64,000 nucleotides of DNA from Shimia gijangensis (GTDB taxonomy: Bacteria; Pseudomonadota; Alphaproteobacteria; Rhodobacterales; Rhodobacteraceae): positions 124,001 through 188,000 of the forward strand of contig NZ_FQZQ01000004.1 in the NCBI RefSeq assembly GCF_900142085.1. The letters are read 5' to 3'. Every line of letters begins with the position of its first letter. Positions within the stretch are counted from its first letter, which is position 1. A model generated the notes under the pieces. It was not told the origin of the DNA, ran no database searches, and saw only the letters and a list, made by a program, of their open reading frames with translations. Below, piece after piece: positions 47,250 to 61,337 of the stretch. The translations under genes were made by a program, and so were the position numbers.

Positions 47250-48653
47250 TCAGCCGTCCGTGTTCAAAACACCGTTTTCCCACTGGCCCGTGTCTTCGCT
47301 GCCATTGGCATAACGCATGGTGCCTTCCCCCTGACGTTTGCCGGATTTGAACATGCCCTCGTAGATATCGCCGTTGGCATAAGTCGCGACGCCGTTGCCG
47401 CTGATTTTGCCCGTTTTCCACTCTCCGGCGTACTTAAAGCCGTCCGGCATCATAATTTCACCGACGCCATTACGCTGACCATTGGCGAACTGACCTTCAT
47501 ATATTGTGCCATCCGGGTAGGTGGCTTTGCCAACCCCGTGACGCTGGCCATTCATCCATTCACCGTCATAGCGATAGCCGTCCGCATAGGTCATGACGCC
47601 CCGGCCGTGGTTCTTGGCGTTGAGGAATTCGCCTTCATAGATCAGTCCATTGGCGTAGGTTGCTTTGCCGGTGCCTTCGATAACGCCGGCTTTCCAGTCG
47701 CCCGCATAGGTGGATCCGTCGGGATAGGTGATTTCACCAACCCCATCTGCGAGATCGCCGCGAAACTGCCCGACATAAACTGAGCCATCCGGGTAGGTAA
47801 CGGTGCCGTCGCCCTCAATATGTCCCGCGATCCAGCTGCCGACATATTCATAGCCGTCAGCACCCTTGAAGTTACCCTGCCCGTGGCGTTTATCCGCCTC
47901 AAATGCGCCTTCATAAATATCGCCATTGGCATAGGCCACGCGACCGGCTCCCTGACGTTGGCCGCCGGCCAATTCGCCTTCGTAGATATCCCCGTTGGGT
48001 TGCGTCAACTTACCAGAGCCTTCGATCTGACCCGCGTGCCAAAGACCTTCGTAGATCAGACCGTCCTGCATCACCAGCTTGCCTTCACCGTCGCGCTCGC
48101 CTGCCATAATCTGTCCGACATAGGTTGCACCATCCGGATAAGTGATCTCACCCATGCCTTCTTTGACGCCATTCAACCAATCACCGCTATAGACATAACC
48201 GCCCGGGCTGGTCATCACGCCTTTTCCGTGGTGCATCGCATTTTGAAAGCCACCTTCATAGCGCACTCCGTTGGCATAGATCGCAACACCGCTGCCGCTG
48301 ATCTTGCCGTTGAGCCATTCACCCTCAAACGTGCCTCCGTCGGTAAAGGTAATCTTGCCCATACCTTCGGGTTTGCCTTTGACGAATTCACCTTCGTAGA
48401 TGGATCCGTTTGGAAAACGCGCCTGACCTTTGCCTTTGATCTCGCCGTCAGTCCATTCACCGGTATATTCATACCCATTTGGCAGCCGATAAGAGCCTTG
48501 CCCGTGTTGCAGGCCGCCCTTGAAGGTGCCTTCATACACGCCACCATCGTCATACTGCTTGGTCAGGATTTCGCCACTCTGCGCGAAAACCGGCGCGACG
48601 AAACTGCCCGCGGCCAAGAAACATGCCAAAGTGATTGCCTGAGTTCTGCTCAT
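47250..48653 (-). CDS. Periplasmic MORN-repeat protein
   Basis: 467 residues with a signal peptide (MSRTQAITLACFLAAG...FAQ), then 18 complete MORN repeats of 23 residues (pattern G-x-x-Y-E-G-x-W-x-x-G-x-x-x-G-x-G-x-x-x-Y-P-D/N) and a partial nineteenth, covering residues 37-467 with no other domain. MORN arrays form long beta-meanders used in protein or lipid contacts. Repeats 1-9 resemble 10-18 in order, so the array is two nine-repeat halves. No partner is evident. It diverges from nadE and faces the porin across a shared terminator. Confidence 0.92.
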   Translation of the reverse strand: MSRTQAITLACFLAAGSFVAPVFAQSGEILTKQYDDGGVYEGTFKGGLQHGQGSYRLPNGYEYTGEWTDGEIKGKGQARFPNGSIYEGEFVKGKPEGMGKITFTDGGTFEGEWLNGKISGSGVAIYANGVRYEGGFQNAMHHGKGVMTSPGGYVYSGDWLNGVKEGMGEITYPDGATYVGQIMAGERDGEGKLVMQDGLIYEGLWHAGQIEGSGKLTQPNGDIYEGELAGGQRQGAGRVAYANGDIYEGAFEADKRHGQGNFKGADGYEYVGSWIAGHIEGDGTVTYPDGSVYVGQFRGDLADGVGEITYPDGSTYAGDWKAGVIEGTGKATYANGLIYEGEFLNAKNHGRGVMTYADGYRYDGEWMNGQRHGVGKATYPDGTIYEGQFANGQRNGVGEIMMPDGFKYAGEWKTGKISGNGVATYANGDIYEGMFKSGKRQGEGTMRYANGSEDTGQWENGVLNTDG

Positions 48654-50474: not shown

Positions 50475-50781
50475 TTTCGCGAAAGCTGCGAGAGTATTTT
50501 CGGAAAAGATGGCGCAAACTATTAGCTAGTGAACTGATCAGTTGAAGACCGGTGACTTCGCAACTGGTCACGGAAAAGTTTTCAATGCCTCGGTGCCATG
50601 GCTCTTCGGGGGTCTTATATCGAAATTAGTTTTTGGCTGCTTTTGTCGTGCGGTGAAGGGCGCAGTGCCCTTGAGCCATGAATGCATGATACAATGACGA
50701 GAATAATATGGGTGCTGTGCGGTGAAGCGTATTTGCCTGAGACCGCGCAGGTTGCAAAGAGTTTGGGAGACAGGTCTTAGG
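50475..50781 (+). repeat. Non-coding gap with three-part repeat, copy 3 (partial)
   Basis: No convincing gene lies in these 307 bases. The first 37 hold TTTCGCGAAA (50475-50484) and GAGAGTATTTTCGGAAAAGATGG (50490-50512), which match the last two modules of the repeat at 4870-4922 and 58970-59041. A small hairpin (AAGGGC-GCAGT-GCCCTT) occurs near 50656. The rest is AT-richer and may carry the promoter of the next gene. Confidence 0.45.
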
Positions 50782-51843
50782 GTGGACTTTACAGGGCTCA
50801 GTAAACGAATTTTTAGTTGGCTCGGGCGACCTTTGCGCTCGGACCACTCCAAAGCCCGTGGGCGCGGTCCGCAAATCCATGTGATTATTCTGGATGGCAC
50901 CATGTCCTCGCTGGCACCGGGTGAGGAAACCAACGCCGGTTTGACCTATCGCCTTTTGCAGGAAATGAACGGCTCGTTGACGCTTTTTTATGAGGCTGGT
51001 GTGCAATGGCAAAATTGGCGATCAACACTTGATGTGATGATGGGGCGTGGACTCAATCGTCAGATCAGACGGGCCTATGGTTTCTTGGCGTCGCGTTATC
51101 GCCCCGGAGACAAAATTTTCCTGATGGGCTATTCGCGTGGTGCTTTTGCGGTGCGGTCGCTGGCGGGGGTAATTGATCGGGTCGGATTATTGCGAGCGTC
51201 CTGTGCGACCGAGCGCAATGTGCGGCAAGTGTACCGGCTGTACGAAGCCAACCCGGATGGGGATGCCGCGCGGGCTTTTGCAGAGGCGCATTGCCACTCT
51301 GAGATCGAAATCGAAATGATCGGCGTTTGGGACACGGTCAAGGCATTGGGACTGCGATTGCCAATTTTGTGGCGTTTGACCGAAGAGAGACATGCGTTTC
51401 ACAACCACCATTTGGGACAACATATCAAGCACGGGTTCCATGCGCTGGCGTTGGATGAAACGCGCGAAGTCTATCAACCGGTTTTGTGGGAATGCCCAGA
51501 TGAATGGGGCGGACGTGCTGAACAAGTGTGGTTTCGTGGGGCTCATGGCGACATTGGAGGTCAATTGGGGGGATTTGAGGCCGCAAGACCGCTTGCCAAT
51601 GTTCCTCTGGTTTGGATGCTGGAGAAGGCCGAGAGTTGTGGATTGCCTTTGCCGGAGGGTTGGCATGATAGGTTTGACCAAGATGCTGACGCACCAGCAA
51701 CGGGGACTTGGCAAGGCTGGGGTAAAATGTTTCTGTTTCGCCAGAAACGCATTGTTGGGCAGGATCGTTCTGAAAGAATTCACGAAACTGCACAACAGCA
51801 TGTGGCTACTGGTGCACTGAAAGCTGCGCATTTTGAAAACTAA
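50782..51843 (+). CDS. DUF2235 alpha/beta-hydrolase-fold protein
   Basis: 353 residues from the GTG at 50782, with AGG 7 bases upstream; another GTG at 50722 would add 20 residues. The DUF2235 pattern is clear: IHVIILDGTMSSLAPGEETN, FYEAGVQWQNW, the nucleophile elbow LMGYSRGAFAVRSLAGVI, IEMIGVWDTVKALGL and WFRGAHGDIGGQL (Asp and His). Some DUF2235 proteins are phospholipase effectors of type VI secretion, but no secretion genes, immunity gene or signal peptide are present here, so a housekeeping lipase or esterase role is equally possible. Confidence 0.85.
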   Translation: MDFTGLSKRIFSWLGRPLRSDHSKARGRGPQIHVIILDGTMSSLAPGEETNAGLTYRLLQEMNGSLTLFYEAGVQWQNWRSTLDVMMGRGLNRQIRRAYGFLASRYRPGDKIFLMGYSRGAFAVRSLAGVIDRVGLLRASCATERNVRQVYRLYEANPDGDAARAFAEAHCHSEIEIEMIGVWDTVKALGLRLPILWRLTEERHAFHNHHLGQHIKHGFHALALDETREVYQPVLWECPDEWGGRAEQVWFRGAHGDIGGQLGGFEAARPLANVPLVWMLEKAESCGLPLPEGWHDRFDQDADAPATGTWQGWGKMFLFRQKRIVGQDRSERIHETAQQHVATGALKAAHFEN

Positions 51844-51891: not shown

Positions 51892-52566
51892 TCACTCATC
51901 GTGCCATGCTACCATCTCATCAAGTGTGGCGCGTTCGGTGCGGAAATTATTGGCCGCGTGGTCATGATCTGCATAGCCAAAGGAAATCGCTGCCAGCACA
52001 AGTTGATCGTCAGGAACAGACATGTGTTGCCGTACCGCGTCCGCATAATAAGCGATCGAGGCCTGTGGGACTGTGGCGACGCCTTGGGCCTGAGCGCTGA
52101 GGCAGAATGACGTGATAAAGCCGCCGCAATCAAGGGCCCCATAGGGTCCAAGCTCTTTATGGCTGGTGATGACGGCGATATGTGGCGCGCCAAAGAACGA
52201 AAAATTCTTGCGCATCTGGTCTTTACGGCCTTCGCGGTCATGCCGTTCGATCCCCAGCGCATTGTAAAGCTGATAACCGCAAGTCTGCGCGCGCTTCTTG
52301 CGCACATCAGTATATGTCGTCGGATAAAAGTAATCTGCCTCGGGTTCGGTTGTGTCAAAAGCTTTTAACATGGCGTTGCGAAAGGCTTCAGTGCCTTCTC
52401 CGGAGGTCACATGCACTTGCCAGGGCTGAAAATTGCACCAGGACGGTGCGCGGCCTGCATCCAAGAGGATGGTTTCAATCACCTTGCGCGATACAGAGAC
52501 GGGTTTGTAGCTACGGCAGGAATATCGGTCGTTGAGCAGCGTTTGCAGAGCGGTATGTGTCGACAT
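51892..52566 (-). CDS. Nitroreductase-family flavoprotein
   Basis: The 224-residue FMN-dependent protein has the typical RYSCRSYKPVSVSRKVIETIL opening, DAGRAPSWCNFQPWQVHV and a C-terminal AISFGYADHDHAANNFRTER with the conserved phosphate-binding arginine. It would reduce nitro or quinone compounds with NAD(P)H. It starts 4 bases after the stop of the zinc-ribbon gene and so appears to be the last gene of the 58881-51892 unit. Confidence 0.9.
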   Translation of the reverse strand: MSTHTALQTLLNDRYSCRSYKPVSVSRKVIETILLDAGRAPSWCNFQPWQVHVTSGEGTEAFRNAMLKAFDTTEPEADYFYPTTYTDVRKKRAQTCGYQLYNALGIERHDREGRKDQMRKNFSFFGAPHIAVITSHKELGPYGALDCGGFITSFCLSAQAQGVATVPQASIAYYADAVRQHMSVPDDQLVLAAISFGYADHDHAANNFRTERATLDEMVAWHDE

Positions 52567-52570
52567 GGGC

Positions 52571-53680
52571 CTATTGGTTTTGTGCTATCAGGAAGCCAAT
52601 GATGCCTGCAGCAATGGCGGCGAGCAAGACCGCAAATACAATTTTCCAGGTTGAATAGGGGCGTTCGCCCTGAACCTTGCCGGATTGCCCGTTCACCACG
52701 AAGCGATAGGTCTTGCCACGGTATTTATAGGCGGCCATCCAGACCGGCAACAGAATATGCTTGAAGGTGACATCGCTGACGGTGGTGTTCATCTGACCGA
52801 TCCTTTGGCGATCGCCGCCAATATCAAAGCGCACATCCCTCTCAATGATCCGGTCCATATGAGCGCGGGCTTCGTCATAGCCTTCGCCCAGCTGGATCGT
52901 ATAGCCTTCGGCGGCAAATCCCGCGAGGAATTCCGGACTATAGGGGCGCAAGTCGCCAAGGTCCCAGGGTTGCAAAGCATCGGTATAGCGTTTGGGCAAT
53001 GCCCGCGAAGCGAGCACCAAAACATCGTCAAAGAACCGCGCCACCCGGCCCGAAACAGGCGTCCACCTGATTTTCTGGACTTGCCGCTGTTGCCGTTTGC
53101 CGTCCACCATGACGGTTTCAGTCACATAATAGATCGTGCCGCGTTGCCCGGAATAGCGGGTCTTGGTGTCCGCATCATAGGTCCAATATGGCACATAGAT
53201 GCCGTTCAGCTTGCGTCCTTTGCGAGCGTATTCCTTGAGGCCATTTGGTGCAAACCACAAGCGCCCTAACCAGTGGGTCATGGCATTGCGGGCCTGCCGT
53301 TCCTCGATTGCAAAGGGCAAAACTGCGCGTGGTTTGATATGGCGGTGCGTGCCGGTGTCGGCCACTACGGGTGTTGCGCAAAAGGGGCATTCCGTGGCGT
53401 GGCCGGCAGAGTCAAAGGCCACCTCGGCGGCACAATTCGGGCAGGCCGTCACGCGGGTTTCTTCGATTTCCTGCGTGGGCAACTGGTTGTTCAGCGCCTG
53501 GCGGAAGTCCAGCTCGCGAATTGTTGGTGTGTCCTGCTCCTCTAACAAATCCGTATGGCCGCAGTGGTCGCACGTCAGTGTTCCCTGAGAGGGATCAAAC
53601 CGATAATCGGCTCCACATTGCACACAAGGAAATCGATGCGTTTCCTCAGGCGCAGGAGGAGGGGACGTGGGCTCGGACAT
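52571..53680 (-). CDS. Zinc-ribbon membrane protein (YdjG-like)
   Basis: 369 residues with two zinc ribbons (CVQC...CDHC at about 19-40 and CPNC...CPFC at about 79-101), a middle domain of about 220 residues (LNGIYVPYWTYDADTKTRYSG and FKHILLPVWMAAYKYRG) and one C-terminal membrane helix (IVFAVLLAAIAAGIIGFLIA). Databases often mislabel the ribbon part as primosomal protein N'. The layout resembles Bacillus YdjG, a membrane anchor for the SPFH protein YdjI, and here the SPFH gene lies 6 bases upstream. The start is an ATG at 53680. Confidence 0.82.
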   Translation of the reverse strand: MSEPTSPPPAPEETHRFPCVQCGADYRFDPSQGTLTCDHCGHTDLLEEQDTPTIRELDFRQALNNQLPTQEIEETRVTACPNCAAEVAFDSAGHATECPFCATPVVADTGTHRHIKPRAVLPFAIEERQARNAMTHWLGRLWFAPNGLKEYARKGRKLNGIYVPYWTYDADTKTRYSGQRGTIYYVTETVMVDGKRQQRQVQKIRWTPVSGRVARFFDDVLVLASRALPKRYTDALQPWDLGDLRPYSPEFLAGFAAEGYTIQLGEGYDEARAHMDRIIERDVRFDIGGDRQRIGQMNTTVSDVTFKHILLPVWMAAYKYRGKTYRFVVNGQSGKVQGERPYSTWKIVFAVLLAAIAAGIIGFLIAQNQ

Positions 53681-53686
53681 TAATAT

Positions 53687-54808
53687 TCAGGCTCCGGGAG
53701 GTGGCGGTGGAAGAATTGTGAAAAGCTGCGCCAGCTCGGTCACATCTTCGGCACGCTTCCAGCCGTCCTGTCCAGCAGTCCAGACATAGGTTTCGCGCGT
53801 GAGTTCCCCTGCGGTGGCCATACGGCCCATCGCGGCCTTGGAAAATGGGCCCTTGGTGGTTCCGTTTTCGGCCACATGCCAGACATGTTCGACCGGAGGT
53901 GCGGGCGGAGGAGCCGCGGCAGCCTGTGGGGCCGGTGTTGCTGCGGTGCGTGCGCCCCATGGGCCGGCCATTTGCTGGGCCATCGCGATTCCCATGCCTG
54001 CACCCATACCGGCAGCCATACCGCCGCCAGATGGGTTTTGCGCGGCGGCAGTCATGGCTTCTGCGGCAGAAAATTGGGTGTATTTACCCAGATCGCCAAC
54101 AATCCCGATCGACGTGCGCTTGTCCATCGCCTCTTCGACTGCAGGCGGCAGAGAGATGTTCTCGATGTAAAGTTCAGGCATAGAAAGGCCATATTCGGCA
54201 ATTGTACCCGAGATTTCGGCGGCAACCAGTTTGCCCAGATCGGCCGTGTTCGCCGCCATGTCCAGCACTGGAATACCTGATGATGCAATCACCCGGCTGA
54301 ATTCTTGCACCAAGATATTGCGAATTTGAAAGCTGATCTCATCCATAGTGAATTCGCCATCGGTGCCGACAATCTCAGTCAGGAAGCGGGCAGGATCTGT
54401 TATACGGATCGAATAGGTGCCAAAGGCGCGCAAACGCACCGGACCAAATTCAGGGTCACGGCAAATGATCGGGTTCTTGGTGCCCCATTTCAGATCATTA
54501 AAGCGCGTGGTGTTGACGTAATAGATTTCGGACTTGAACGGTGATTTGAAGCCGTGATCCCAATGGTTCAGCGTGGTCAGGATCGGCATGTTGTTGGTCT
54601 CAAGCATGTAAAGACCGGGAGTGAACACATCTGCCAGCTGGCCTTCGTGCACAAACACCGCAGATTGACCTTCGCGCACCGTCAGCTTGGCGCCATATTT
54701 AATCTCGTGGCCTTCGCGTTCAAAACGCCAGACCATCGTGTCACGAGTGTCATCCACCCAATGGATCACATCAATGAATTCACCAGTTAGAAAATCGAAA
54801 ATACCCAT
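53687..54808 (-). CDS. SPFH-domain protein with C-terminal GYF_2 domain (YdjI-like)
   Basis: 373 residues. Residues 20-235 form an SPFH domain of the virion-core-like/YdjI subgroup (KLTVREGQSAVFVHEGQLADVFTPG, then GTYSIRITDPARFL and GLSMPELYIENISLP). A Gly/Met-rich and Pro/Ala-rich linker follows. Residues 308-360 are a GYF_2 domain (HVWHVAENGTTKGPFS, then TYVWTAGQDGW), which binds proline-rich partners. There is no membrane helix, so it needs an anchor; the next gene supplies one. AAAGGAG precedes the ATG. Confidence 0.88.
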   Translation of the reverse strand: MGIFDFLTGEFIDVIHWVDDTRDTMVWRFEREGHEIKYGAKLTVREGQSAVFVHEGQLADVFTPGLYMLETNNMPILTTLNHWDHGFKSPFKSEIYYVNTTRFNDLKWGTKNPIICRDPEFGPVRLRAFGTYSIRITDPARFLTEIVGTDGEFTMDEISFQIRNILVQEFSRVIASSGIPVLDMAANTADLGKLVAAEISGTIAEYGLSMPELYIENISLPPAVEEAMDKRTSIGIVGDLGKYTQFSAAEAMTAAAQNPSGGGMAAGMGAGMGIAMAQQMAGPWGARTAATPAPQAAAAPPPAPPVEHVWHVAENGTTKGPFSKAAMGRMATAGELTRETYVWTAGQDGWKRAEDVTELAQLFTILPPPPPGA

Positions 54809-54829
54809 GGGATCAGTCTCCTTTTGGGG

Positions 54830-55732
54830 TCAATACAAGCGTCCCGCTTTTTCGCGGGCCATGAGGTTAATGACAGGGCGGGCTGTGTCCAGCGTCATGC
54901 CGATCGACAGGCGTGGATCATAGAGCATGGACAGCAAGGCCTCGTCATGTGTCGTCAGCAATGCAAATTCGTCATCATCGTTGAATATTGACGGGCGTGC
55001 ATTGGGGCTGTCATTGGCGAGCCCCAAACCTTGGGCAATTTCCTCGTGATAACAGGATTTGCGCAAGAGGTCGGGGTGTTCTGCGCGCACCAAGGCCACC
55101 GCCGTGCGGTAGTCATTGTCGTCTTTTTCAGACGGGAAGGCTGCGACCAAACAGTGGATGCCGCGGGGTGGATCTGTGAACAGGCCAAGCGTGGAGGGGC
55201 TGACGCCCGGAATAATCTGGCGCAAGCGAGACAGAAGCTGACTGCGATCATCTTCGCCCATGACCAGCACATGAAAATTCGCGCGTCCGCCATTCATAGA
55301 GATGGGACGCCCGGTGATACCGGCAATCCGACGCACATAAGACGATACAGTTTTGTCGTCCTGATTGCGGGTCTCAACAGGCACTGACGCGCCGTACTCA
55401 ACGCCGATCCGGACCGGACCGGACCAGCGACGCAATTGTCCCGCACGGCCCGAAGATTTCCGTAACCCACGACCCGGTGCGTATTCGTCATAAAAAGCGA
55501 TCTGTTCGAAGTTTCGCGCCAGCATGTCTGAGGTATAGGGCGTATCCGGACCACCACCATCAGTGCGCAACAGGCCACGGGCAATCAGATCAGCTTCGAC
55601 TTTGACATAATAGGCGCGCAACGCTGCGCTGTTGGCTGATGGCGCCCTTGGGGCAGAAATTGCTGGTTTTGATGTTTCCGAACCCGGTGTCAGGCCCTGA
55701 CAGGCCGCAAGTGCGGCCAATGTCAGGGTCAT
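54830..55732 (-). CDS. DUF2927 lipoprotein-like protein
   Basis: 300 residues from the first ATG (55732). It has a lipobox-like LAALAAC at residues 6-12 and the DUF2927 core: LRRWSGPVRIGVEYGASVP, GRANFHVLVMGEDDR, then a metalloprotease-like SCYHEEIAQGLGLANDSP (HEE). The ATG gives a signal peptide with no positive charge. The frame continues upstream to FRITRIIL, which would supply charges but only with an ATT, ATA or CTG start, so the true start is unsettled. It lies between telA and the SPFH gene. Confidence 0.8.
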   Translation of the reverse strand: MTLTLAALAACQGLTPGSETSKPAISAPRAPSANSAALRAYYVKVEADLIARGLLRTDGGGPDTPYTSDMLARNFEQIAFYDEYAPGRGLRKSSGRAGQLRRWSGPVRIGVEYGASVPVETRNQDDKTVSSYVRRIAGITGRPISMNGGRANFHVLVMGEDDRSQLLSRLRQIIPGVSPSTLGLFTDPPRGIHCLVAAFPSEKDDNDYRTAVALVRAEHPDLLRKSCYHEEIAQGLGLANDSPNARPSIFNDDDEFALLTTHDEALLSMLYDPRLSIGMTLDTARPVINLMAREKAGRLY

Positions 55733-55762
55733 CAGGATTATCCGGGTTATGCGAAAAATGGC

Positions 55763-56962
55763 TTAGGCTCCAAGCACTGAAGTTGATGCGGTGTCTCCCA
55801 ATCCGGTGGCTTTGGCCTTGGCAGCAGCCAGAGTGTCCCGCAATTCCGACTCCATCTTTTTCAAATCCTCTTCGGCGCTTGCGCGTTTGGCTTTGCCTTC
55901 ATCTGCAATCTGCAGCGATTCTTCAATCGTACCAATCAGATCGGCGTTGGCCTTTTTCACCGCTTCGATGTCAAACACGCCGCGCTCCATCTCCTGACGG
56001 ATCACCTTGTTGGATTCTCGAAGGTTGGCCGCATTTGACGTCAATAATTCGTTGGTCAGATCATTGGCGTCCCTCACGGCTTCAGCCGCTTCGGCGCTGC
56101 GCTGTATGGTGACGGCCTGCGCCAGTTGGGTCTCCCAGAGCGGAACGGTATTGACCAAGGTCGAGTTGATCTTGGTGACCAGAGATTTGTCGTTTTCCTG
56201 CACCAGACGGATCGAAGGCAACGACTGCATCGTCACCTGACGCGTGAGTTTCAGGTCATGCACACGGCGTTCCAGATCATCGCGCGCGGCGCGCATATCC
56301 CGCAATTCCTGTGCCTGCATGACCTGGTTTTTTTCGTCCGCAGCTTTGACTTCGGCCTCTTTTGCCGGGATCACATCTGCATCAAGTTGCGCAATTTTGG
56401 CTTCGCCAGCAGCAATATACAGCGCCAGTTCGTCATAGAAATTCAGCGTCTTGTCATAGAGCATATCCAAAGACTTAATGTCTTTCAGCAGTGTGTGTTC
56501 GTGATCCAAAAGGTTGTCAGTGACCTTGTCGATTTGATCCTGCACCTCTTCGAAGCGGGCTGTGAACTTGGCAAATGGAGCCGCGCGACCCAGCAGTTTT
56601 TCCCAAAAAGACCGTTCACGTCGCACATCCAGCTCGGAAATCGAAAAGCCCCGGATTGTGGTCACGATGTTGCGAAGACTGTCCCCAGCGGGTCCCACGT
56701 CTTTATTTCGTACATCCTGCAACATGGCCTGGCTGATTTCCTGCAGTTCAGCCTGCGCAGCGGAGCCGAAATTCACAATTGACCCGGTGTCGCCCATGTC
56801 CAATTCACCCATCCGCTTGGTAATTTCGGCGCTCAATGGCGCATCGGCCTCGGCCAGCGGAACGATGGCTGTGGCCTCGGTGGGTTCAGGCAGAATCACG
56901 GCTGTGACTTCATCAACTTCGGCCAGTGCAGCCTCGGCTTTTTGACGGACAGTGTCGGACAT
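55763..56962 (-). CDS. telA: TelA/KlaA-family toxic-anion resistance protein
   Basis: 399 residues, largely alpha-helical and coiled-coil, with the TelA pattern: NFGSAAQAELQEISQAML, RERSFWEKLLGRAAPFAKFTARFEEVQDQIDKV, and LWETQLAQAVTIQRS. TelA was named for tellurite resistance and occurs with Ter-type stress proteins; its chemistry is unknown. The ATG at 56962 follows AGGGGAAG; a longer frame to 57025 overlaps xpaC. It starts 19 bases after the xpaC stop. Confidence 0.92.
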   Translation of the reverse strand: MSDTVRQKAEAALAEVDEVTAVILPEPTEATAIVPLAEADAPLSAEITKRMGELDMGDTGSIVNFGSAAQAELQEISQAMLQDVRNKDVGPAGDSLRNIVTTIRGFSISELDVRRERSFWEKLLGRAAPFAKFTARFEEVQDQIDKVTDNLLDHEHTLLKDIKSLDMLYDKTLNFYDELALYIAAGEAKIAQLDADVIPAKEAEVKAADEKNQVMQAQELRDMRAARDDLERRVHDLKLTRQVTMQSLPSIRLVQENDKSLVTKINSTLVNTVPLWETQLAQAVTIQRSAEAAEAVRDANDLTNELLTSNAANLRESNKVIRQEMERGVFDIEAVKKANADLIGTIEESLQIADEGKAKRASAEEDLKKMESELRDTLAAAKAKATGLGDTASTSVLGA

Positions 56963-56981
56963 GGAACTTCCCCTTTTTGGG

Positions 56982-57866
56982 TTACTTGGCGTCGTGACGG
57001 ACGCCCTCGCGCTGCAGTCTTTCACGCAGCACTTCGATTTCGATTGTCAGATCGCTCTTGTCATCGAGCAAGAGCCTTTCGGTGCGGGCGGCAAAGTTTT
57101 GCTCAAGATCGTTGAGCAGGGCCTCATAATCAGCGCGGGCCTGCGGGTCGCGGTTGCGCGCATATATATCGGCAAACTTCACCGTCGCGTCGCGTGCCCC
57201 CTTGAGGTAAACGCCCATGAATTTTCGCGCAGCGGTCAGGTCACGTGGATCGTTTTCAACTGTGCGAAACAAACGTCGGGCAGTGGTTTGAAACTTGGCA
57301 ACGCGCGCCTCAAGCCCGCGATCTCTGCAACGTTTGGCCGCGTCACTCATCGCGCCCAGAAGGTTTTCGGCCTCATCCACGGCGCGGGCGACCCGATCAG
57401 TTTGGTGCAAGTCGATACCTTCGATGCCTTTGTCAGACAAGGGATCAAGCCCAAAGGCCATGCCATGCAGGACCGTGCCAATAACGGCGTAGATGGCCGG
57501 AGCAAGAATGCCACCCGTCGCGGCCCATCCGGCAATGGCCAGACCAAGGCCTGTTAGCACAGACCCTGCCATCTTGCGTGGAAACGTCGGGCGCCGGGCG
57601 ATCGTGCGGGCCTCATAAGCTTCGTGTGCTAAAAGACCTTCGCGAGTCAACCAGGCTGCCAGCAACAAGCTGCTCAGCGCAATCAGGTTTAAAGCCAACT
57701 TTTCCGGGCCATTGCCAAAAGCCTGCCAAATCAAGGGCAGGGGCGCGAGAAACAGGATATTGGCCCGACCACCAGCTCGGCTGCGAGCAGCACCTTGAAA
57801 GGCTCCGGTCTCTGGCGTTTGGTCATGGTCTTTCGGGCTGTGTTTTCCACCATACCGCTCAGCCAT
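56982..57866 (-). CDS. xpaC: XpaC-family (5-bromo-4-chloroindolyl phosphate hydrolysis) protein
   Basis: 294 residues. An N-terminal region with membrane helices (about 35-75 and 105-135) precedes a helical cytoplasmic domain rich in Arg and Glu (AVDEAENLLGAM, FQTTARRLFRTVENDPRDL, FMGVYLKGARDATVKFADIY), which is the XpaC pattern. XpaC is a regular neighbour of TelA. The ATG at 57866 is fixed by AGGAGG 6 bases upstream, which lies inside the last codons of the small gene before it; the two share TGATG. Confidence 0.9.
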   Translation of the reverse strand: MAERYGGKHSPKDHDQTPETGAFQGAARSRAGGRANILFLAPLPLIWQAFGNGPEKLALNLIALSSLLLAAWLTREGLLAHEAYEARTIARRPTFPRKMAGSVLTGLGLAIAGWAATGGILAPAIYAVIGTVLHGMAFGLDPLSDKGIEGIDLHQTDRVARAVDEAENLLGAMSDAAKRCRDRGLEARVAKFQTTARRLFRTVENDPRDLTAARKFMGVYLKGARDATVKFADIYARNRDPQARADYEALLNDLEQNFAARTERLLLDDKSDLTIEIEVLRERLQREGVRHDAK

Positions 57867-57958
57867 CACACACCTCCTGCGATGGACACGTAAAGGATCA
57901 GTATGACAAGCAAAACATAGGACAGCTTTTGCAATCCGCTACCGGACATCTTGTTCAT
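57866..57958 (-). CDS. 30-residue single-span membrane peptide
   Basis: This reading frame encodes MNKMSGSGLQK, then a hydrophobic stretch of about 14 residues (LSYVLLVILILYV) and SIAGGV. It begins just after GCGGGGAA (a start at the fourth codon, ATG at 57949, is spaced better from it). Its stop codon overlaps the xpaC start (TGATG), and its last codons contain the xpaC ribbon AGGAGG, so translation of the two is coupled. I know of no family. Size, composition and coupling support a real micro-protein acting with XpaC/TelA. Confidence 0.6.
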   Translation of the reverse strand: MNKMSGSGLQKLSYVLLVILILYVSIAGGV

Positions 57959-58062
57959 TTCCCCGCTAAGTCTGCCAGAAACTTAAGAAGTTTGGGATGA
58001 ACTTGCTAGGGGGAAGATCGCCCGGAGCGCGTCAGAGACGTATTCCGGGCAATTCTCGTGAC

Positions 58063-58881
58063 CTAGTGACGGCTGGCGGCCTGACGCTCAGCGTTCAGTT
58101 TGCGACTATAGCCCGATTGGATGAATTCGACGATGAAGAGCACCGCAACCGAGAAGTAGAAGGTGGTTTTGGACATAGGTTCCAACGCGTAGCCGAAGAA
58201 CTTTAAGCCTAGGCTGTCATCATGCATGGCATGCGCGGCTGCGGGGCCTGCCTCGCCCAAAAGAACCACTCCGACGATCAGCAGAATGAACAGGCCAAGA
58301 ACTTCGTACATCCGGTTCTTTTCCAGAAAGCGCGTCACCCCATCGGCCAGCAGAAGCATCGCCAGGCCGGACATCAGGATCGCAATAGCCAGGATCGGGA
58401 AAACATCGGTGATGGCGAGTGCGGAAAGCACCGAGTCGAATGAAAAGATCAAATTCATCGTGACGATCAACAACACCACCTGAACGGCCGATTTGCCGGA
58501 TTTGTGGCTCAAATCTGTGTGCAGGTCTTCGATCGACAACATATGGCCGATTTCTTTCACCGCCGTGTACATGATGAAAAAACCACCGACGATGAAGATG
58601 CAGGTGGCAAAATTCACTCCACCTTCGATGATGCCTGGGGTGTTGAACACGAAAAACGGTTCGGCCAGGGCGTCGATTAGCTGGATCATCGTGAACAGCA
58701 AAACGACCCGAAGCGCCACCGCGATGATGATCCCCCAAAACCGAACGGCTTTTTGTTGGGCGACGGGCGCACGTTGAGATTCGATGGAAATGTAGAGAAG
58801 ATTGTCAAACCCCAGAACCGCCTGAAGAAAGCATAGCATTATTAGGTCGGTCAGGTTCTCAAAGGTCAAAAGGTCGCTCAT
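58063..58881 (-). CDS. terC: TerC-family integral membrane protein
   Basis: The 272-residue protein has about eight spans. It carries the conserved acidic intramembrane motifs QAVLGFDNLLYIS (about 20-32) and IFSFDSVLSALAITD (about 145-160). TerC/Alx proteins are linked to tellurite resistance and to manganese export or metal loading at the membrane. It heads the run of genes to 51892, 104 bases upstream of the small membrane peptide, which may be enough for an extra promoter. Confidence 0.93.
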   Translation of the reverse strand: MSDLLTFENLTDLIMLCFLQAVLGFDNLLYISIESQRAPVAQQKAVRFWGIIIAVALRVVLLFTMIQLIDALAEPFFVFNTPGIIEGGVNFATCIFIVGGFFIMYTAVKEIGHMLSIEDLHTDLSHKSGKSAVQVVLLIVTMNLIFSFDSVLSALAITDVFPILAIAILMSGLAMLLLADGVTRFLEKNRMYEVLGLFILLIVGVVLLGEAGPAAAHAMHDDSLGLKFFGYALEPMSKTTFYFSVAVLFIVEFIQSGYSRKLNAERQAASRH

Positions 58882-59056: not shown

Positions 59057-59851
59057 CTAGCGGCGGCGTTTGCGCTGGGGTGTTTTGCGTTTTTCTGGTG
59101 GCGTAACGCCCTCCAGCCCCAGTTGATCGCGCACCACACGGCGACGGATTTCTTCGACCTCGCCGGGTTTGAGCTGGCCCAGCTGGAAGGGGCCATAAGA
59201 CACACGGATCAAGCGGTTCACCGACAGGCCCACGGTTTCCATCGCGCGGCGAATTTCGCGGTTGCGTCCTTCGCGGATGCCGATGGTCAGCCAGGCGTTG
59301 GCGCCTTGCTGGCGATCCAACGTGACTTCCATGGGCTGAAAGCGTTCGCCTTCGATGCTGACCCCTTTGAGCAAAGGAGCCACGGTTTCTTCCGTTGGGC
59401 GACCATTCACGCGCACCCGGTATTTGCGCAACCAGCCGGTGGACGGCAGTTCAAGCTTTCGTTTTAAGGCACCGTCATTGGTCAGGATCAATAGGCCTTC
59501 GGAATTGAGGTCAAGGCGTCCTACAGACATCACCCGCGGCATGGTATCCGGCAGATGGTCAAAGATCGTATCGCGGCCCTTTTCATCTTTGTGCGTTGTC
59601 ACAAGTCCGGTGGGTTTGTGATACAGCCAGACGCGCTCGGGCTCGGGCTCGGCAATTGGCTTGCCGTCAAAGGTGATCCGGTCGCTGGCCGTGACATTCA
59701 AAGCGGGGCTGGTGATCTTTTTGCCATTAACAGTCACCATTCCGGCTTCGATCATGCGTTCGGCTTCGCGGCGGCTGGCGATGCCTGCGCGCGCCAAAAC
59801 TTTGGCAATGCGGTCGCCTTTCGGCGTTTCTTTGGGTGTATCTGTGCTCAT
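59057..59851 (-). CDS. rluB: Ribosomal large subunit pseudouridine synthase B
   Basis: The 264-residue protein has an S4 RNA-binding domain (RIAKVLARAGIASRREAERMI) and the RsuA/RluB catalytic core: VGRLDLNSEGLLILTNDG with the catalytic aspartate, RKYRVRVNGRP, and EGRNREIRRAMETVGL. It ends in a basic tail (KRKTPQRKRRR) that should bind rRNA. RluB makes pseudouridine 2605 of 23S rRNA; RluE/RluF are close relatives, but the S4 domain and length fit RluB. Confidence 0.92.
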   Translation of the reverse strand: MSTDTPKETPKGDRIAKVLARAGIASRREAERMIEAGMVTVNGKKITSPALNVTASDRITFDGKPIAEPEPERVWLYHKPTGLVTTHKDEKGRDTIFDHLPDTMPRVMSVGRLDLNSEGLLILTNDGALKRKLELPSTGWLRKYRVRVNGRPTEETVAPLLKGVSIEGERFQPMEVTLDRQQGANAWLTIGIREGRNREIRRAMETVGLSVNRLIRVSYGPFQLGQLKPGEVEEIRRRVVRDQLGLEGVTPPEKRKTPQRKRRR

Positions 59852-59913: not shown

Positions 59914-60366
59914 ATGGTGTTCACAAGTTACATGGAACAAGCGCTGGAAGAGGCACATGCGGCTGCGAAGCGAGGCGAGGTCCCTGTGGGCGCAGTGATC
60001 GTTTCTCCCGAAGGGGAAGTCGTTGCGCGGGCAGGTAATCGAACCCGCGAGCTAAGTGACCCTACGGGGCACGCCGAGATACTGGCTATGCGTGACGCCT
60101 GCGCCGCGCTGGGCAGTGAACGCCTGCCGGGGCATGACCTTTATGTGACTCTTGAACCATGCCCAATGTGTGCCAGCGCGATTTCTCAAGTCCGGATTGC
60201 GCGAGTGTATTATGGCGCTGCGGACCCAAAATCCGGCGGAATTGCTCAGGGGCCGCGGGTGTTCAGCCATCCGCAAAGCCATCATGTCCCGGAAGTTTAT
60301 GATGGGATTTCCGGTGAGGAGTCTGAAGCAATGCTTCGGGCGTTTTTTGCCTCAAAGCGCAGCTAA
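59914..60366 (+). CDS. tadA: tRNA-specific adenosine deaminase
   Basis: 150 residues from the ATG at 59914. The zinc site is HAE (His53, Glu55) with PCPMC (Cys83, Cys86), and EVPVGAVIV and ARVYYGAADPKSG are typical. It converts A34 of tRNA-Arg(ACG) to inosine and is usually essential. It diverges from rluB and overlaps the stop of the cyclase gene by 4 bases tail to tail. Confidence 0.95.
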   Translation: MVFTSYMEQALEEAHAAAKRGEVPVGAVIVSPEGEVVARAGNRTRELSDPTGHAEILAMRDACAALGSERLPGHDLYVTLEPCPMCASAISQVRIARVYYGAADPKSGGIAQGPRVFSHPQSHHVPEVYDGISGEESEAMLRAFFASKRS

Positions 60367-61337
60367 GGCTCGCTCCAGTCCAGACGATACAACAGATGTT
60401 CTCCTTCAAGACCTTTGAGAGGCATTGTAACACCATGAGAAAAGGAGAAATCCTTGGTTGTGCCCACCATAACGCGCGTTGCGTCCGACACACGTATTTC
60501 GCCCGGCAAACAGACGGTAGCCACCCGAGCAGCTTTGTTGACAACCGTACCGAACAGGTCGCTGTCGTTCTCGATAAGATCGCCGGTATGGCACCCTATG
60601 CGAATTTGTAAGCGAGGTTCGTTTGTTTCCGAAGCGTTTGCGATCTGAATCGCTTGGGCCGCGATTAGGGCTGCTCTGGACGAATTGAAGCTCGACATGG
60701 TGCCATCCCCCAACGTCTTGATCAGCCGACCGCCGTTGGCATGAATGATGCCGGTCAACAATTCGGTGTGGTGCGCAACAGCGCGACTCCACCTTGCGTC
60801 GCCAATAGTTTCGGCAATTGTGGTGCTGTCAGCGATGTCGGTAAACATGATAGATGCGATACCGGTCTGGCCAATTTCTGACACGGTTGACATCGCTGCA
60901 TCCAGTAGATCCTCAAACCCCCGGGATTCATATCCCAGCGCATTCATGTTTGAGACCGGGTTTGAGTTATGCACATGCACGATACGCCAAACCCCCTGCT
61001 CAAGATGCAACACAAAGGTGGATCGAAAGGTGATATCCTTGCCGTTCTCCAATGACACACGCTCGCCAAACCATTCGACCCAGCCAAGTTCACCGCACTC
61101 AAAGCCTCGGAATTCGTCCCTTTCCCAGTTAAAGCTGGGGATGTCATCCATATAGTTGGGCATACCCTGACGCAATGTGTCGGCGCGCCAGATCTCATCA
61201 TGAGAGGAACCTATGTAACCCAATGCCGGGTCGGCGGAAAACAGGTTCACAACGGCCTGTTTGTCGCCCGAAGCATAGGATTTGAGCCACCGCCGGACGA
61301 TGGCCCCCAGTTCGGGCGAAGGGACAATGCCATTCAT
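60363..61337 (-). CDS. Class III adenylyl/guanylyl cyclase with N-terminal SnoaL-like domain
   Basis: 324 residues. Residues 1-130 form an NTF2/SnoaL-like cone (RRWLKSYASGDKQAVVNLFS, RSTFVLHLEQGVWRIVHVHNS), a possible small-ligand sensor. Residues 160-320 are a cyclase catalytic domain with both metal aspartates (IMFTDIADST and IKTLGDGTMSSF) and the Asn and Arg that hold the transition state (VVNKAARV). The Asp of DLFG favours ATP as substrate. It starts 4 bases after the UPF0173 hydrolase gene, and so forms a two-gene unit. Confidence 0.88.
   Translation of the reverse strand: MNGIVPSPELGAIVRRWLKSYASGDKQAVVNLFSADPALGYIGSSHDEIWRADTLRQGMPNYMDDIPSFNWERDEFRGFECGELGWVEWFGERVSLENGKDITFRSTFVLHLEQGVWRIVHVHNSNPVSNMNALGYESRGFEDLLDAAMSTVSEIGQTGIASIMFTDIADSTTIAETIGDARWSRAVAHHTELLTGIIHANGGRLIKTLGDGTMSSFNSSRAALIAAQAIQIANASETNEPRLQIRIGCHTGDLIENDSDLFGTVVNKAARVATVCLPGEIRVSDATRVMVGTTKDFSFSHGVTMPLKGLEGEHLLYRLDWSEP

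Follow-up and report, generated by a model that had tools for sequence, protein, structure and literature searches.

The locus examined here is a gene module on contig NZ_FQZQ01000004.1 of Shimia gijangensis, and its coordinates are given as positions in the 64,000-nt window (124,001–188,000 of the contig) that constitutes the whole stretch of DNA analysed. The eight co-directional frames proposed by an earlier sequence-only reading are real and correctly placed, all on the minus strand, and their spacers are short as claimed, at 4–30 bases from xpaC downwards, with a gap of 104 bases between the TerC and micropeptide genes (Table 1). Our comparison across the Rhodobacteraceae gives good support to a conserved core, consisting of the micropeptide, XpaC, TelA, the DUF2927 lipoprotein, the SPFH protein with its GYF domain and the zinc-ribbon protein (ZnR), that behaves as one linked unit, while TerC and the nitroreductase are accessories present in a minority of loci. 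The stop codon of the micropeptide overlaps the start of xpaC by one base (TGATG), and for TelA the ATG at 56962 is favoured over a longer frame from the GTG at 57025. The nearest named relatives of the window are Shimia, with up to 87% identity in the SPFH protein, and every match of ZnR to the Pfam zinc-ribbon models falls under the curated cut-offs. To our knowledge, the function of TelA and XpaC is not settled although both are widespread, and none has been assigned to DUF2927.

Table 1. Genes and features of the locus, in minus-strand order
Feature	Position	Strand	Properties
TerC-family membrane protein	58063..58881	-	Pfam TerC E 4e-36; accessory, upstream of two-block element
Two-block promoter-like element	57980..58015	-	TTCCCCCTAG-N19-YTAnnTT, ~30 bases before micropeptide start
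Micropeptide	57866..57958	-	30 aa (ATG 57958) or 27 aa (ATG 57949); one hydrophobic segment
XpaC-like protein, 294 aa	56982..57866	-	PF10112 E 2e-26; two hydrophobic hairpin-like regions near N-terminus
TelA, 399 aa	55763..56962	-	PF05816 E 2e-105; predicted all-helical
DUF2927 lipoprotein	54830..55732	-	E 3e-60; metzincin-like predicted fold, EExxQxxGxxND replacing HExxHxxGxxH
SPFH protein	53687..54808	-	Band_7_1 E 3e-100 and C-terminal GYF_2 E 6e-21; without hydrophobic segment
Zinc-ribbon protein (ZnR)	52571..53680	-	Two CxxC..CxxC ribbons; C-terminal membrane segment 347-365
Nitroreductase-family protein	51892..52566	-	E 2e-26; accessory neighbour

In a sample of one genome per genus from 61 genera of Rhodobacteraceae, in which presence counts are uncorrected for phylogeny, each of TelA, SPFH-GYF and ZnR is found in 56 genera, and the set of 56 is identical for the three; the same five genera (G013, G024, G025, G038 and G052) lack them all. 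The order XpaC–TelA–DUF2927–SPFH–ZnR, scored with gaps below 2 kb, is intact in 49 of the 56 family loci and in 72 of 80 named loci, the latter being the best 80 of 587 relatives and hence near ones, three of which share genomes with L059, L064 and L087. Among the eight named loci off this order, several are truncated at contig ends and one is without DUF2927; in L226 neither XpaC nor TelA lies within the fetched flank. In the family sample, G021 and G056 hold module fragments or contig ends, the G014 locus is without DUF2927 and the G019 locus without XpaC, and the genes inserted between SPFH and ZnR or between DUF2927 and SPFH vary from genome to genome. The PF10112 gene lies directly before the PF05816 gene, a pairing lost in G019 and on Paracoccus ferrooxidans pFER4, whose loci yielded no XpaC. 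Thus, the joining of an XpaC/TelA pair with an SPFH/zinc-ribbon pair, claimed from the one locus, holds across the family, and the neighbourhood comparison that had been suggested reveals conserved linkage and no scattered occurrence inside it.

Linkage beyond the family is rare. Among 104 genomes drawn from the class the SPFH-GYF profile matches 6 and TelA 9, and the two adjoin in G106, in G160 and in the two genomes that belong to the window's genus; among 377 drawn from the phylum the corresponding matches number 63 and 84. G106, G160 and G504, the last outside the class, carry an XpaC–TelA–SPFH–ZnR block without DUF2927, which in G106 comes immediately after the gene for a PBP2 and a RodA-like frame (RodA named by eye). 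Six records of chromids or plasmids contain this TelA, and in every one the SPFH gene lies 1–2 kb away; pFER4 carries TelA–DUF2927–SPFH–ZnR, and no xpaC or micropeptide was found in that locus. These distributions bear on whether XpaC–TelA and SPFH–ZnR are two separate units merely co-inherited by vertical descent. The halves are separate, with both retained, in G017 and G054, and lie on different contigs in G004, perhaps the same case; SPFH–ZnR pairs occur without TelA in L136, L138, L139 and L148, and apparently unrelated neighbours also stay in place. By comparison, the retention of both halves even where they lie apart speaks for one unit, both halves are lost together in all five genera lacking either, and the joint block recurs in three other families, one of them outside the class, which makes mere co-inheritance rather unlikely. 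The SPFH gene of L145, which is without a GYF domain, is grouped with AdoMet decarboxylase, DUF350, DUF4178 and spermine synthase genes.

By contrast with the core, TerC occurs in 11 of 56 family loci and 19 of 80 named loci, and the nitroreductase in 11 and 45, respectively, lying at most 150 bases from ZnR in 40 of 78 named loci; these accessory counts vary with the length of flank fetched. Their proposed membership of the module is therefore not upheld. Assignment of the locus to the Ter-type stress set is not supported either: a TerC-family gene adjoins the module in the window, but unlike in Ter-type systems (TerC/TerD) it does not belong to the conserved core, and a scan of 20 open reading frames (ORFs) at and near the locus revealed no TerD-type gene. 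The two-block element separates TerC from the micropeptide, so that TerC is probably outside the core transcript. Of 119 upstream regions (116 distinct), 47 (45 distinct) contain an exact match to TTCCCCCTAG-N19-YTAnnTT, mostly 28–31 bases before the micropeptide, and the spacer is 19 in every match although 17–20 was allowed; 200 shuffles gave none. In 15 genomes selected as carriers, a single exact match is present in 12, always at the module, and none in three, compared with one match for the reversed control pattern. As no match lies away from the module in these 15 genomes, no co-regulated genes are named. The element is read as a putative core promoter; a sigma-70 consensus scan found no minus-strand promoter, and terminator-like sites are fewer than in shuffled sequence. 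A role in metal homeostasis around TerC, which would export manganese and metalate exported proteins, DUF2927 being the client that receives the metal, would fit the adjacency of TerC in the window and an invariant DUF2927 site of hard, non-zinc ligands that could suit another metal. The small share of loci with TerC and its separation from the core by the two-block element leave this role quite unlikely.

The gene at the front of the core encodes a previously overlooked, probably membrane-spanning peptide of some 30 residues, with a consensus near M(S/T)xxGLQKLAYVLLxxLIxYVxxGG. A profile built in part from the loci later counted with it matches beside xpaC in 54 of 55 xpaC loci and in none of the six that lack xpaC; five of these six are halves or fragments, leaving L051 as the one module truly devoid of the gene. 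The micropeptide is likewise present in 72 of 75 named loci. No Pfam or NCBIfam model matches the peptide. Its codons, compared over 44 cores of which a few are out of register, show proportions of synonymous (pS) and nonsynonymous (pN) differences of 0.57 and 0.19 in frame for 62 close pairs, and of 0.66 and 0.45 for all pairs, as against 0.52/0.50 and 0.41/0.54 in the other two frames. In addition, xpaC paralogs have their own hydrophobic-tailed small ORF (42–56 aa) ahead of them in 10 of 11 cases (9 of 10 distinct, L087 and L224 being one genome), counted with a filter chosen after the first cases were seen and without a random control. We infer that the micropeptide is a dedicated partner of XpaC. 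Small ORFs before xpaC in L133 and L135 were considered as homologues beyond the family and rejected: with scores of 3.0 and 6.0 bits they do no better than an artificial hydrophobic control (5.8 bits), so that they share position only. Upstream of the module lies a second, diverged XpaC gene, preceded by a small hydrophobic ORF of its own, in L033, L053, L075, L087, L161, L179, L181, L188, L207 and L224, and L050 has a second XpaC gene upstream with no small ORF detected. For XpaC itself, a sequence search of solved structures gave nothing convincing up to E 1.

The SPFH protein carries the GYF_2 domain that had been read from its sequence. At least three prolines are present in the last 14 residues of all 134 SPFH proteins (131 of 131 distinct), and in 130 of 134 a further proline run lies ahead of the GYF domain. 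Proline-rich peptides are ligands of GYF domains, so the proline runs likely serve self-clustering of the SPFH protein through GYF. Among solved structures, sequence search returned one chain for the SPFH protein, the GYF domain of gliding protein X (7z3c, E 1.3e-7), and only zinc-ribbon matches for ZnR. ZnR was rejected as a general GYF ligand, since just 49 of 131 have a PP pair ahead of their first CxxC. In L044 (9109-10178), the ZnR of G012 is read as two overlapping pieces, perhaps through a frameshift or assembly error.

Structural prediction places the DUF2927 family among metzincin-like proteins, with an invariant non-histidine site in the module's branch. The DUF2927 model (predicted local distance difference test score, pLDDT, 91.0) gave no Foldseek match at E ≤ 0.001, and its best 18 matches are matrix metalloproteinase (MMP) chains from E 1.3e-3 (1hv5), with probability mostly 1.00; VIA-align superimposed 151 residues on MMP-7 (8k4z) with Z 11.2 and a root-mean-square deviation of 3.1, and matrixins fill its list. 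By sequence, solved structures gave nothing convincing up to E 1. The predicted model thus shares its fold with matrixin and other metzincin peptidases (MMP catalytic domains, karilysin), but unlike these it has no HExxHxxGxxH zinc site: the module's proteins carry EExxQxxGxxND in 128 of 130 sequences, and in 126 of 128 distinct ones E, Q and N/D stand in place of the zinc histidines. Seventeen other DUF2927 proteins in the alignment divide into ten with EExxQ...G..ND, five with HExxHxxG and a further histidine, and two with neither. The third histidine has canonical spacing only in L254 and lies one residue later in L256, L259, L264 and L265; all five HExxH proteins exceed the Pfam DUF2927 cut-off. 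A lipobox follows the hydrophobic stretch in 115 of 130 module proteins by a strict pattern, and several of the other 15 are lipobox-like by eye. In the earlier description of DUF2927 as an exported protein and possible hydrolase, the HEE motif is out of register, its histidine falling outside the zinc-ligand columns; the predicted fold is metzincin-like, but the zinc histidines are replaced. The HExxH-type protein L265:943-2169 also matches Peptidase_M23 weakly (29.4 bits against a cut-off of 28.7), a hint of a cell-wall role, and the window's genome holds a second DUF2927 gene outside the module (G000:C33:42430-43029, L261), also with EExxQxxGxxND.

Parallels with known systems are drawn from excerpts of PMC8581546, PMC9239133, PMC12791056, PMC3139573, PMC10936438 and PMC6955997. 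The pspA-ydjGHI operon of Bacillus subtilis likewise pairs an SPFH protein that lacks a membrane segment with a zinc-ribbon protein anchored in the membrane, and YdjI requires YdjG/YdjH for bringing PspA to the membrane (PMC8581546, PMC9239133). The likeness to YdjI and YdjG claimed for the window's SPFH and zinc-ribbon proteins is borne out when assessed by features rather than by YdjI/YdjG sequences. Unlike that operon, the module has no PspA and no YdjH counterpart identified, adds TelA, XpaC, the micropeptide and DUF2927, and ends its SPFH protein in GYF and a proline run where Bacillus YdjI, in these excerpts, has a zinc finger. The absence of PspA noted at the locus extends genome-wide, with no PF04012 match in the window's whole genome or in the 20 window ORFs scanned. 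Gram-positive xpaC-telA pairs (lmo1966-1967; llmg_1115-1116) also place the XpaC gene directly ahead of the TelA gene and are linked to envelope stress in the excerpts: in Lactococcus, xpaC-like and telA1 rise 10.3- and 3.4-fold on overproduction of membrane proteins (PMC3139573), and disruption of the TelA-like Listeria lmo1967 raises sensitivity to nisin four-fold and to tellurite two-fold (PMC12791056). Here, by comparison, the pair is joined with SPFH, ZnR and DUF2927 genes in a larger unit, and a micropeptide gene precedes xpaC. A literature search that is thin in subscription journals found no relevant paper joining TelA with XpaC and SPFH, TelA with SPFH and PspA, XpaC and TelA with TerC, or GltJ with GYF and proline, and none on DUF2927.

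The module resembles a known complex for envelope protection, in a variant working without PspA. We judge it about evenly balanced that its proteins form a membrane complex acting in envelope stress, with TelA/XpaC standing where PspA stands beside YdjI/YdjG in Bacillus. In favour are the joint presence and order of the genes in the family, the four-gene block outside it, the chromid and plasmid records, the tie of the micropeptide to XpaC, the proline tails of the SPFH proteins, the scarcity of PspA, the Bacillus, Listeria and Lactococcus parallels, and the PBP2 and RodA-like neighbours in G106. Such a complex would lie at the inner membrane and protect or repair the envelope, with ZnR anchoring the soluble SPFH protein in the membrane much as YdjG (with YdjH) does for YdjI. 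The SPFH protein would oligomerise, its GYF domain gripping proline runs of neighbouring subunits or partners and so clustering it on the membrane, and this scaffold would recruit TelA into PspA's place. XpaC and its obligate micropeptide may be TelA's own membrane-embedded pair, and the DUF2927 lipoprotein, outside the inner membrane, may bind or report on the periplasmic side without zinc peptidase chemistry. A fuller version, offered tentatively as one possibility, is a Psp-like repair complex in which TelA and XpaC replace PspA/ESCRT-III on a YdjI/YdjG-type scaffold, each XpaC has its own dedicated single-pass micropeptide that gates it, and a repurposed metzincin lipoprotein, its zinc site rewired to E/E/Q/N/D, is the periplasmic sensor.

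Several observations weigh against this reading. Gene order alone is a weak argument, because an apparently unrelated pseudouridine synthase gene also keeps its place next to the module, in 42 of 56 loci of the family and 66 of 80 named loci (in the window an S4/RluB-type gene at 59057-59851, minus strand, upstream), and in the phylum draw SPFH-GYF adjoins TelA in only one, G504, of the 53 non-family genomes with TelA. The TelA model is weak (pLDDT 63.8) and its fold search gave no match at E ≤ 0.001, so neither the PspA analogy nor a PspA/ESCRT-III-like fold of TelA has structural support. Solved structures related to TelA by sequence were not found up to E 0.1. Furthermore, PspA exceeds the cut-off in 10 of 61 family genomes, all of them module carriers, and because these ten hold both, the module is not a strict PspA replacement. 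Binding of the proline tail by this particular GYF domain is drawn from the general background on such domains.

Resistance to oxyanions, in which TelA and XpaC would detoxify tellurite or limit its damage with help from the other genes, is suggested by the TelA family name, by the listing of Rhodobacter sphaeroides telA among chromosomal tellurite loci in the excerpt of PMC6955997, and by the tellurite sensitivity of the lmo1967 mutant. That mutant is hit harder by nisin, however, the core holds no known reductase or methyltransferase, and presence in 56 of 61 genera is broader than expected of a niche resistance; we consider tellurite resistance unlikely. An anti-phage or conflict system has in its favour a Vibrio coralliilyticus plasmid (L267) on which the SPFH gene and a neighbour lie near, and point away from, a TIR-domain gene cluster. 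PADLOC returned no match for seven module proteins, and the module is near-universal in the family rather than patchy, making a defence function highly improbable. Linkage to an SPFH scaffold in a compact unit gives TelA, XpaC and DUF2927 a concrete and testable setting, comprising a putative operon, a front element, a micropeptide partner for XpaC and a predicted DUF2927 fold. If TelA does work where PspA does elsewhere, a system protecting the envelope would have gone unrecognised in most of a large marine family.

Elsewhere in the window, a Tle1-like phospholipase-domain protein (50722-51843, plus strand) beside a tRNA-Lys gene converges on the module's end. A protein with SnoaL and adenylate/guanylate cyclase domains is encoded at 60363-61337 (minus strand), and in L037 and L056 several copies of it stand in tandem upstream; there is also a protein with 14 MORN repeat stretches at 47250-48653 (minus strand).

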